From Piscinibacter sp. XHJ-5 (GTDB lineage Bacteria > Pseudomonadota > Gammaproteobacteria > Burkholderiales > Burkholderiaceae_C), in contig NZ_CP123228.1 in the NCBI RefSeq assembly GCF_029855045.1, forward strand, positions 310,001 through 374,000: 64,000 bases of DNA, written 5' to 3'. Positions 52,068 to 55,646 of the stretch are shown here, in pieces (position 1 is the first letter of the stretch; every line of letters starts with the position of its first letter). Position numbers and translations under genes: made by a program. Below the pieces are notes generated by a model. That model was not told the origin of the DNA and searched no databases. It saw only the letters and a list, made by a program, of their open reading frames with translations.

Positions 52068-53702
52068 CTATGCCACCGCGACGCGGTTTCGGCCACCTTG
52101 CTTGGCGCGGTACATCGCGCGGTCGGCCTGGTCGAACAGCGTCGCGATGTCGTAGGGCGGCGCGTGGGCGATGCCCACGCTCAGCGTGACCTGCAGGCCG
52201 GGCGCGAGTGTAGCCCAGTCGTGGGCGGCGACACGCGCGCGCAGGCGCTGGCAGACCTCGACGGCCTGCGCTTCCGGCATGTCCGCGAACACCACCAGGA
52301 ACTCCTCGCCGCCGATGCGCGCCAGCACGTCGCTGCTGCGGGTGTTCTCGCGCAACTGGTGCGCCATCTCGACCAGGACCTTGTCGCCGACGGCGTGGCC
52401 GAAGCGGTCGTTGATCTGCTTGAAGTGGTCGAGATCGATGAGCGCCACGGTGAGCGGCAGGCCCTGCGAGCGCGCCGCATGCAGCAGAAGCGGCATCCGC
52501 TCGTCCAGGTGGCGCCGGTTGCCCAGGCCGGTGAGCTGGTCACGCTGCGCGTCGGCGCGAAAGCCCGCGGCGCGCGAGCGTTCGAGCTGCGCTTCGCGCC
52601 GCGCCCGTTCCGCCTGCACGCGGGCCTGCTCGGCCTCGACCCGCGTGACGAAGAGCTGCGACTGCGCCTTCAGCTGGCTGGTGGCGCGCCTGCGCTCGAG
52701 GCGATCGTGCTGCTCGAAGTGGGCGAGTGCCTCTTCGATGAGGCCGAGGTCGCGGCTGGCGCGGTACAGCGCGTGGTGGACGCGGATGAGGGTCGAACGC
52801 GGGTCGGCGCCGGCCATGTCGTGCAGCAGTCCGTTCAGCGCGCCATGCGCCTCGCTGGCCTGTCCCTGGGCCAGCATCAGCTCGCAGATGGAGCAGCGGA
52901 TGCGCCAGACCTGCGCCTCGTAGCCGTGCTCCAGACCGCGCTGCAGGGCGCCGTCGAGCAGCGTGCGCGCCTCCTGCGTGTTGCCCAGGTGCAGCAGCAC
53001 CTCGCCGAGGTTGCCCTCGACGAAGACCGCAAAGAAGGGATCGTCGAACTGATGCAGCAGCGAATGGGCCTCGCGTGCGTGCACGAGCGCCCGCCTCAGT
53101 GCGGCGATCGCCTCCGCCGGCTCGTCGCCGCCGCGCAGCACGTAGAACGCGCCGGTGCACACCGCGCACAGGTTGTTCAGCGTCACCAGCTGCGCGAAGG
53201 GATCGCCCACCTCGTGCGCCACGCGCAGGGCATCGTCCATCAGGCGCTCGGCCTGCCAGGGATCGCCCATGCGCTCGAAGCAGGCGCCGAGGGCCGTCAG
53301 CGACAGCGCGAGCTGGCGCTGGTCGCCGATGTCGTGCGCCAGCGTGCAGGCCTCGTTGGCGTGCTGCATCGCGCGATCGAAGCGGCCGGTCTCGCAGCCG
53401 GCGAGCGTCATCCAGCGCAGCAGGTCGATGCGGGTCGCGCGCCGGGCCGGCGCAGCCAGCGCGCCCAGGACCTCATCGCCGATGTCGAGCAGGGCGGCGA
53501 GAGCGCCGAGGCGGTAGTTGAACAGGCACAGCAGGTGACCGGCCTCGGCGCGCTGGTCCTCGGATCCCGACTGCAGCGCCAGCGCCCACGCTCGCTCCGC
53601 GAGCTGCCGGCCTTCGGTCAGCGACGATGCGTCGCGCGCTGCGCGCGCGGCCTGCAGAAGGTCGGCAAGGGAGGAGCGGGAGTCGGCTGGCGGTGTCTGC
53701 AT
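52068..53702 (-). CDS. TPR-repeat diguanylate cyclase (GGDEF)
   Basis: A 544-residue soluble protein. The N-terminal part (residues about 20-340) consists of tetratricopeptide-like helical repeats with recurring patterns such as AERAWALAL, ALSLTALGACFERMGDPWQAE and LVTLNNLCAV. A coiled linker rich in Arg/Glu/Ala follows (VQAERARREAQLERSRAAG). The C-terminal GGDEF domain has GGEEF intact, with an inhibitory-site RSSD five residues before it. It should make c-di-GMP in response to protein contacts. It is divergent from the small double-glycine-leader peptide gene (190 bases). Confidence 0.92.
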   Translation of the reverse strand: MQTPPADSRSSLADLLQAARAARDASSLTEGRQLAERAWALALQSGSEDQRAEAGHLLCLFNYRLGALAALLDIGDEVLGALAAPARRATRIDLLRWMTLAGCETGRFDRAMQHANEACTLAHDIGDQRQLALSLTALGACFERMGDPWQAERLMDDALRVAHEVGDPFAQLVTLNNLCAVCTGAFYVLRGGDEPAEAIAALRRALVHAREAHSLLHQFDDPFFAVFVEGNLGEVLLHLGNTQEARTLLDGALQRGLEHGYEAQVWRIRCSICELMLAQGQASEAHGALNGLLHDMAGADPRSTLIRVHHALYRASRDLGLIEEALAHFEQHDRLERRRATSQLKAQSQLFVTRVEAEQARVQAERARREAQLERSRAAGFRADAQRDQLTGLGNRRHLDERMPLLLHAARSQGLPLTVALIDLDHFKQINDRFGHAVGDKVLVEMAHQLRENTRSSDVLARIGGEEFLVVFADMPEAQAVEVCQRLRARVAAHDWATLAPGLQVTLSVGIAHAPPYDIATLFDQADRAMYRAKQGGRNRVAVA

Positions 53703-53892
53703 GTGGCGCGGCGAGCGCAATGGGCTGGAAAACGGCGACTTCGCGATCATGCGCCAGCCGGGCGAGATGTCGGAACTTGGGCCCCGTCGCTACACCAATT
53801 TTTTCGACGTCCTCGCGACGAATGGTCATCGGCGAATGCCGCCATGCCGCGGCTATGGTGCTTCCCATCCGCCGTGCGGCGTGGGAGATGCG

Positions 53893-54045
53893 ATGAACTT
53901 GACCGAAGAAAGCGTCGGTATGCGTGACGAACAGGCTGAGCCCCCGCCTGCACCGCGGGAGCTCACCGAAGACGAGCTCAAGCGCGCGTCCGGCGGCAAG
54001 TGGTGCCTCTTCCAGTGGGTCGAGGGCGAACTCGTCGTCGGCTAG
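53893..54045 (+). CDS. small double-glycine-leader peptide
   Basis: A 50-residue open reading frame. The N-terminal part is acidic and Pro-rich, followed by ELTEDELKRASGG, which matches the double-glycine leaders of exported peptides (bacteriocin and signalling-peptide type), where export proteases cut after GG. The predicted product is the 15-residue KWCLFQWVEGELVVG, with two Trp and one Cys. A GGGAG ribosome binding site precedes the ATG, and a TATGGT hexamer at 53854-53859 could be the -10. No C39 peptidase, ABC exporter, immunity gene or modification enzyme lies in the window. It is divergent from a GGDEF protein. Its function is unknown; the leader assignment is inference. Confidence 0.6.
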   Translation: MNLTEESVGMRDEQAEPPPAPRELTEDELKRASGGKWCLFQWVEGELVVG

Positions 54046-54125
54046 ACCCAGTCGCTCCGGACCGGTCTCGCCCCGCCTCGCCACCGCCAGAAGATCCGGT
54101 GGCTTGCGACCCTCCGCCAGACCGG

Positions 54126-55646
54126 TTACTTCGCGGTCGGCATGGCGAACTCGGCACCCTTGGCCGTGCTTTCCGGCCAGCGCTGCATGATCGATTTCTG
54201 CTTCGTGTAGAAGCGCACGCCCTCTTCGCCGTAAGCGTGCATGTCGCCGAAGAGGCTGCGCTTCCAGCCGCCGAAGCCATGCCAGGCCATGGGCACCGGG
54301 ATCGGCACGTTGATGCCGACCATGCCCACCTGGATGCGGCGCGCGAATTCACGTGCAATGTGGCCGTCGCGCGTGTAGCACGCGACGCCATTTCCGAACT
54401 CGTGGTCGTTGACGAGCTGCACCGCTTCGGCAAAGTCGTGAGCGCGCACGCATGACAGCACCGGCCCGAAGATTTCCTCGCGGTAGATGCGCATGTCGGG
54501 CTTCACGTGGTCGAACAGCGTGCCGCCGGTGAAGAAGCCCTCCTCGTGGCCCTGCACCTTGAGCCCGCGGCCATCGACGACCAGCGTGGCGCCTTCCTGG
54601 ACGCCGACACCGATGTAGCCCTCGATGCGCTCCAGCGCCTGGCGGGTCACGATGGGGCCCATTTCGGCGTCGAGCTCCATGCCGTTCTTGATCTTCAGCG
54701 TCTTCGCACGCTCGGCCAGCATCGGCATGATGCGATCGCCCACGTCGCCCACCAGCACCGCCACGCTGATCGCCATGCATCGCTCTCCGGCCGAGCCGTA
54801 GGCGGCGCCCACCAGGGCGTCGACGGCCTGTTCGAGGTCGGCATCGGGCATCACCACCATGTGGTTCTTGGCGCCGCCCAGCGCCTGCACGCGCTTGCCG
54901 TGGTGCGCGCCGGTCTCGTAGATGTACTGCGCGATCGGTGTCGATCCGACGAAGCTGAGCGCCTTCACGTCGGGGTGCGTCAGCAGGGCATCGACGACGA
55001 TCTTGTCGCCCTGCACGACGTTGAACACGCCATCGGGCAGGCCGGCCTGCTTCAGCAGCTCGGCCATGAACAGCGAGGCCGATGGGTCGCGCTCGCTCGG
55101 CTTGAGCACGAAAGTGTTGCCGCAGGCCAGCGCCAGCGGGAACATCCAGCACGGAACCATGCACGGGAAATTGAACGGCGTGATGCCGGCCACGACGCCC
55201 AGCGGCTGGCGCAGCGTCCAGTTGTCGATGCCGGTGGAGACCTGGTCGGTGTAGTCGCCCTTCAGCAGCTGCGGCACGCCGCAGGCGAACTCGACGATGT
55301 CGATGCCGCGCGTCACCTCGCCCTGCGCATCGGTGAACACCTTGCCGTGTTCGGCGGTGATCATGGCGGCGAGCGTGTCCTTGTGCTGGTTCAGCAGCGC
55401 AAGGAAGTTGTTCAGGATGCGCGCGCGGCGGATCGGCGGCGTGTCGGCCCAGGCAGGGAAGGCCGCCTTGGCCGCCGCGACGGCGGCCGCCGCCTCGTCG
55501 GCAGTGCCCAGCGCCACCTGGCGCGCGACCGTGCCGTGGGCCGGGTTGTAGACCGGCTGGCGGCGCCCGCCGGTGCTGGGAACGACGCGGCCGCCGATGT
55601 AGTGGCCGACTTCGGTCGTGGCAGTGAAGGATTCGGGGGCGCCCAT
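54126..55646 (-). CDS. mmsA: methylmalonate-semialdehyde dehydrogenase (CoA-acylating)
   Basis: A 506-residue CoA-dependent aldehyde dehydrogenase for valine and thymine/inositol catabolism, giving propionyl-CoA or acetyl-CoA. Motifs: [32 protein letters not shown], the catalytic Cys in [26 protein letters not shown], and [12 protein letters not shown] typical of MmsA. Length and motifs are full. It is divergent from a LysR-type gene, with a 100-base gap that contains a perfect inverted repeat, so control by that regulator is probable. Confidence 0.94.

Follow-up and report, generated by a model that had tools for sequence, protein, structure and literature searches.

A candidate orphan double-glycine-leader peptide in Piscinibacter sp. 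XHJ-5 and a conserved luxR-precursor-exporter module with a similar leader

Peptides with double-glycine (GG) leaders, orphan ones included, are a kind already known, and Gram-negative bacteria were reportedly screened for them by Dirix et al. in 2004. According to PMC7018657, GG leaders are recognized through positions -4, -7, -12, and -15, and pneumococcal substrates carry a hydrophobic residue at -15. The peptide described here resembles the GG peptides of peptidase-containing ABC transporters (bacteriocins and pheromones) treated there in its GG end and its hydrophobic residues at -12 and -7. However, its exporter is not adjacent, and positions -15 and -4 are occupied by Pro and Ala, respectively. 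In PMC4997328, EbfG1-4 of Synechococcus are small secreted GG proteins for biofilm formation that need the cysteine of a C39 exporter; the likeness to our peptide is one of description. In a literature search with most subscription journals outside its reach, we met no description of a dispersed set of precursors with a shared leader or of a luxR-precursor-exporter module.

The open reading frame (ORF) lies in a 64-kb window, the whole stretch of DNA that was analyzed. The features at and around it are the following.

53893..54045, plus strand: orphan double-glycine-leader precursor ORF, 50 amino acids plus stop (translation, composition, profile match)
53893..53997, plus strand: leader, 35 amino acids, C-terminal end APRELTEDELKRASGG (translation, position counts from 62 precursors, leader HMM)
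53998..54042, plus strand: predicted mature peptide KWCLFQWVEGELVVG, 15 amino acids (translation; homologue searches empty)
53883..53887, plus strand: Shine-Dalgarno-like GGGAG, 5 nt 5' of the ATG (sequence)
52068..53750, minus strand: diguanylate cyclase gene (TPR-GGDEF), with 53750 and 53702 as alternative starts (hits to PF00990 and TPR models; L038 and L039 hold orthologues)
54126..55646, minus strand: aldehyde dehydrogenase family gene, mmsA-like (PF00171; orthologues about 90% identical)
53703..54125 (counted from a GGDEF start at 53702), no strand: stretch between the TPR-GGDEF and mmsA-like genes, which holds the ORF (congener comparison)

Translation of 53893-54045 on the plus strand gives MNLTEESVGMRDEQAEPPPAPRELTEDELKRASGGKWCLFQWVEGELVVG followed by the stop codon, with no internal stop or frame break. 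This confirmed the 50-residue frame with a Gly-Gly leader and a core of two Trp and one Cys proposed by a sequence-only reading of the DNA; the core is also free of Pro and of Ser and Thr. The leader carries Glu at -13 and Gly at -2 and -1. It has the Gly-Gly, Leu -7, and Leu -12 expected of a C39 substrate, but Ala at -4 and Pro at -15. The ribosome binding site claimed in that reading is present as GGGAG at 53883-53887, whereas its -10-like element was not recovered: a crude scan found no sigma-70-like promoter, and no terminator, at the ORF. GC content at codon positions 1, 2, and 3 is 0.71/0.43/0.80 for the whole ORF. The first 22 codons (0.73/0.50/0.64) are not coding-like, and the part from codon 23 (position 53959) to the end (0.69/0.38/0.93) is. 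A frameshifted core was set aside because the coding-like composition continues in the given frame. The codon log-odds of the ORF is +12.5, a score matched by between 1 and 5% of off-frame pieces (95th and 99th percentiles, 10.5 and 17.6); the 5th percentile of true genes is 13.1. An RNA family scan of the locus returned only a chance snoRNA match. The bacteriocin-type signal model TIGR01847 does not match the peptide and passes its cut-off in the genome only at P0003, the precursor beside exporter 1 (below), and the lactococcin G-beta/enterocin 1071B model NF038034 gives the peptide 14.2 bits (E 0.037), below the curated cut-off of 37 bits.

No full-length homologue of the peptide was found in any set searched. 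A database of 5.8 billion proteins returned the window's own protein as the sole match, genome contigs and viral contigs returned no relative, and plasmids gave one chance match (E 0.9). Weak matches besides the own genome occurred in 1 of 59 relatives and in 12 of 398 family genomes (E <= 0.05), and none of them, when read back, had a convincing GG leader; in this read-back one reading is valid for plus-strand places only, and for L028, L034, and L037 the best piece is not the reported piece. Two matches (L009 and L030) have Gly-Gly at the aligned place without Leu -7, and the first of these lies inside a 228-residue frame. The check suggested in the sequence-only reading, for homologues that conserve GG and core, came back empty among the 59 relatives, the 398 family genomes, and the databases. 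That reading would also have abandoned the peptide if the frame was not conserved in close relatives. Conservation is indeed lacking, but the congeners G001 and G002 give no test of it because most of the intergenic stretch is absent there.

The ORF and the TPR-GGDEF gene are divergent, as had been claimed, with the gene on the minus strand and the ORF on the plus strand. The gene retains an intact GGEEF motif and may begin at 53702 rather than 53750, since G002 has an ATG at roughly the corresponding position. The gene on the other side is mmsA-like. In G002 (L038) and G001 (L039), the mmsA-like gene (90% identity) is followed or preceded directly by the TPR-GGDEF gene (75%) in the same orientation, the gap between them is much shorter, and the ORF is absent. 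The remaining congeners, G003 and G004, have no clear GGDEF orthologue (G003 reaches 40% identity at best, and G004 gives no match), and both were left out. Thus, the ORF sits in DNA that is present in its own species and missing from two congeners. Compared with the own genome and 59 relatives for known repeats, the DNA of 53703-54125 gave short, chance-type matches of at most about 50 bases, with a best E of 1.7e-4 among those listed. Because G001 and G002 hold the GGDEF gene without the peptide, the peptide has no lasting tie to it. We rejected a link between the two, and the diguanylate cyclase tie implied earlier falls with it; nor do G001 and G002 show the conserved linkage of peptide and TPR gene expected of a TPR receptor and secreted peptide pair. 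Judged from these genomes, the GGDEF neighbor is unrelated to the peptide, and this holds for the comparison with EbfG1-4 too: the c-di-GMP gene beside the ORF is an unrelated neighbor.

We scanned the own genome for C39 exporters, as the sequence-only reading had advised. PF03412 gave six matches, two of them above the cut-off, and all six lie outside the 64-kb window, in agreement with the earlier claim that no C39 exporter is nearby. Both matches above the cut-off are full C39-ABC exporters elsewhere in the genome, each paired with an HlyD, and both keep what we take to be the Cys, His, and Asp motifs of C39.

C1:100054-102192: exporter 2 (C39-ABC), with HlyD from 98745, 262 kb from the window ORF
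C1:5361091 on: exporter 1 (C39-ABC), in the ATP-grasp peptide cluster
G000:C1:5359841-5365682 (L040 7842-13683): ATP-grasp peptide cluster, outside the window

Exporter 2 has orthologues of 88 to 91% identity in the other four congeners, the copy in G001 ending at the contig end. The cluster of exporter 1 consists of HlyD, C39-ABC, the precursor P0003, an MvdD-like ATP-grasp enzyme, and a PpiC-like protein. The ATP-grasp enzyme resembles TIGR04184/TIGR04187 (below the cut-offs), and the PpiC-like protein exceeds the cut-off of TIGR04500, a family named among the genes near ATP-grasp loci in PMC8939145. P0003 has the leader LTEQELQAVSGA, of GG/GA type, and the core RMSVSWTCGSLQRADEWTL. It is like the window ORF in having a leader of this type in the same genome and unlike it in having its own ATP-grasp and PpiC-like partners and a lower best-domain score on the exporter-2 leader model.

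Exporter 2 belongs to a conserved module with the gene order luxR, lux-type box, GG-leader precursor, HlyD, C39-ABC. In the own genome it occupies G000:C1:87755-102195 (L300 4756-19196), outside the window, and matches come from records of Rhizobacter, Albitalea, Piscinibacter, Rubrivivax, Paucibacter, and Ideonella, among others. At E <= 1e-280, exporter 2 has matches in 31 of 150 family genomes, the own genome included. We collected 113 loci: 5 from the genus, 28 from family genomes (G131, a partial match, was left out), and 80 from genome contigs, which are the best 80 of 576; the organisms partly overlap. Sixteen loci were dropped (13 with less than 400 nt before HlyD and 3 without HlyD just upstream), which left 97. 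A precursor was defined as a GG-leader peptide within 1,000 nt before HlyD whose core has Trp at its end or within 4 residues of it. Such a precursor was present in 73 of the 97 loci, a CTGT-N9-CAG box in the same stretch in 84, and both in 71. The 24 loci without a precursor include the own genome, G002, and G004, where it is displaced, as well as several loci whose GG peptides have some other ending than Trp. The typical box is CTGTAAGAGTTGACAG, and the distance from its start to the start codon is 82 to 102 nt in 69 of 71 loci and 43 and 63 nt in the other two. In all 70 loci where the precursor is preceded by 900 nt or more of sequence, the next gene upstream, in the same orientation, encodes a LuxR homologue.

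Among the 62 distinct precursors, leader length ranges from 30 to 53 residues and core length from 6 to 47. P-x(1-3)-W occurs in 61 of the 62; the selection demanded a Trp close to the end but made no demand for Pro. The motif is repeated in 21 of the 62, with a maximum of five GPNGGW units. In the precursors of L182/L228, L253, and L269, 3 to 5 tandem units (GPNGGW, LPKGTW, LPRGTW) follow the GG site, an arrangement that, by analogy, is reminiscent of multicopy pheromone precursors. Four module variants (L234, L235, L241, and L245) have core units of the LPRVS or LPRVG type without Trp.

Loss of the exporter-2 precursor from the own genome was rejected, since the genome carries it displaced at C1:88590, with leader MSQQQIPAVPQQQAKTSTTPTAPLPIDLTLLSKICGG, core TATSTPTPTW, a luxR (C1:87755-88468), and a box at -90. 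The LuxR of this module has PF03472 and PF00196 domains. About 10 kb separate this precursor from HlyD, and the corresponding distance in G002 is about 13 kb; in the own genome, HlyD is itself preceded by a box-like CTG-N10-CAG. The DNA between precursor and HlyD (L300 5591-15746) holds a second LuxR-type gene, a gene for a phosphonate-binding-type protein, and a gene that we take to be cytochrome c peroxidase-like. LuxR regulators are usually paired with acyl-homoserine lactones (AHLs). We found no match to an AHL synthase in the five congeners, but the control likewise matched nowhere, so this search was blind. From its sequence, the luxR-peptide-exporter module is a candidate peptide quorum or bacteriocin system, and it is a more interesting find than the window ORF.

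The leader of the window ORF resembles those of the module. Profile A1, built from 28 exporter-2 precursors with the window peptide left out, was used to scan all five congeners. With 150 of 260 first-look candidates of the own genome scored, it found there the precursor at C1:88590 (E 7.9e-8), then the window ORF (E 0.0014, profile positions 17-42, leader only), and a third match at E 0.11; the window leader thus matches the profile of the exporter-2 family, but with Ala at -4. An HMM of 61 distinct leaders ranked the window ORF 1st of 11,587 frames of at least 25 residues from 20% of the genome (E 4.6e-4) and P0003 second (E 0.0065), with best domains of 19.1 and 10.0 bits. The precursors share with the window leader Pro -15 (52 of 62), Glu -13 (32 of 62), Leu -12 (55 of 62), and Leu -7 (59 of 62). 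At -4, all 62 have Val or Ile, although the search pattern also permitted Ala, the residue of the window ORF; from sequence, this Ala may weaken recognition of the leader by the exporter. Direct alignment of the window peptide to its nearest leaders is weak: the best tblastn matches (L207, L250, and L211) are 60, 52, and 50% identical, at E 0.026 to 0.062 over those loci. Because the ORF was originally picked for its GG leader, its rank is partly circular, and the fresh evidence in the similarity lies mainly in the part before -12. In the protein database, A1 returned 65 proteins, unnamed or hypothetical except for one UniRef record named Bacteriocin, and the window peptide was absent among them.

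The window ORF is thus like the exporter-2 precursors in leader length, in the residues at -15, -13, -12, and -7, in Gly-Gly, and in having the exporter in its genome. Apart from the Ala at -4, it differs from them in three ways: its core lacks P-x(1-3)-W, its upstream neighbor is the oppositely oriented TPR-GGDEF gene and not luxR, and there is no lux-type box CTG-N10-CAG in 53600-53900. The nearest box-like stretch has 3 mismatches and lies inside the core on the opposite strand.

Precursors away from exporter 2 were observed in other genomes. Over 150 family genomes, apparently the same draw as that used for exporter 2, A1 matched 34 at E <= 0.01, of which 28 belong to the 31 exporter-2 genomes and 6 do not; this overlap is partly by construction because most A1 rows come from exporter-2 loci. 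Outside the own genome, thirteen A1 matches lie away from exporter 2. We examined eleven, leaving out two in frames of 2,099 and 376 residues, and found no relative of exporter 2 in the 2.5 to 10 kb around each. Ten of the eleven look like short GG-leader precursors, and the other (L341) is a long frame. Val or Ile stands at -4 in all ten; the core is Trp-ended in three (L335, L336, and L339) and of another kind in seven. Ideonella paludis (G104) has two such precursors of the same leader type away from exporter 2 (L331 and L337): one is MTTANPCAPRELSLSELSHVAGG-AAESLEGFVLSEGFVLSESVTPVVGTEGFVLSE, with an EGFVLSE core, and the second has a core with WEVFPFV/WESFPFV repeats. Another, from G170, ends in GRPRELSAAELLAVSGG-TKTRKTIRWVSPSDEQSAPF. 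Dispersed precursors with a common leader and other cores are thus a pattern seen elsewhere, and the window ORF fits it except at -4.

We consider it somewhat better than an even chance that the window ORF encodes an orphan precursor for which exporter 2 acts in trans. The suggestion of a GG-leader peptide exported in trans thereby gains from the two C39-ABC/HlyD pairs and from the likeness of the leader to exporter-2 precursors, to the extent that sequence can tell. We counted in its favor the A1 and leader HMM ranks, Pro -15, the C39 motifs, the orphans elsewhere, and the coding-like composition. Against it we counted Ala -4, the missing lux-type box, promoter match, conservation, P-x(1-3)-W, and TIGR01847 match, the first 22 codons that are not coding-like, and the absence among the 65 A1 proteins. 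Several of the latter points suit a relic, in which the copy of an exporter-2 precursor is decaying, its lux box, Val/Ile -4, and Trp-ended core already gone: Ala stands where all 62 precursors have Val/Ile, P-x(1-3)-W is missing from the core, no box lies upstream, relatives hold no homologue, and codons 1 to 22 are not coding-like. However, the frame is unbroken, the ribosome binding site is good, the composition from codon 23 on is that of a gene, and a Trp-ended core is also missing from 7 of the 10 orphan precursors. We regard decay as rather unlikely.

An untranslated frame that is open by chance would account for the missing homologues and promoter match, for a codon score that off-frame pieces can reach, and even for the leader. 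The strict motif [LIMV][STN]xx[ED][LMI]xx[AVIMLT]xGG, defined with the ORF already in view, with a start at most 50 residues from the GG end and 8 to 100 residues after it, was counted 25 times across 70 Mb of Markov-3 sequence, which corresponds to 0.023 per 64 kb. The motif alone is suggestive and not decisive because this null gives about 2.4 per 6.65-Mb genome. Yet the 1.317 Mb of the real genome that were scanned (20%) contain the motif once, at the window ORF, and the count is the same in any context in six frames. Leader motif, ribosome binding site, coding-like second part, intergenic position, and the extra similarity in the upstream part of the leader jointly make chance improbable. 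A real GG-leader peptide could instead be handled by exporter 1 at C1:5361091, perhaps as its second substrate; that exporter has a C39 domain with its motifs, and the leader of its own precursor P0003 is related. The exporter-2 leader model speaks against this: it fits the window leader better than P0003 (19.1 versus 10.0 bits). P0003 also lacks Pro at -15, and a core without Ser or Thr would offer little substrate to an ester-forming ATP-grasp ligase. We judge export by exporter 1 to be very unlikely.

If exporter 2 does handle the peptide, the precursor would be expressed under some control, and its 35-residue leader would address it to the C39 domain of exporter 2, where it would dock. That domain would cut after Gly-Gly, and the 15-residue core would pass out of the cell by way of exporter 2, its HlyD, and a channel in the outer membrane. 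The window ORF would then belong to the scattered orphan set of the clade, with leaders of the exporter-2 type and mostly other cores. It is probably one of several scattered peptides, messages or weapons, that share one exporter, and by analogy the role of the core is most likely antibacterial or signaling.

Finding the exporter of an orphan GG peptide is difficult, and the common leader offers a testable assignment in trans here. Tracing the window leader led to a conserved module of luxR, lux-type box, short peptide, and C39 exporter. It is possible, though we hold it only tentatively, that a LuxR regulator for which no AHL synthase was found drives the Trp-ended peptides and the C39 exporter through the lux-type box, and that the exporter also releases scattered orphan cargo such as the window peptide, which would give this Gram-negative a signaling network based on peptides. 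If this is true, the common leader would serve a dispersed secretome as its address label. That LuxR responds to an exported peptide is a bold reading; if it does, the module would achieve peptide quorum sensing with a type of regulator that usually goes with acyl-homoserine lactones.
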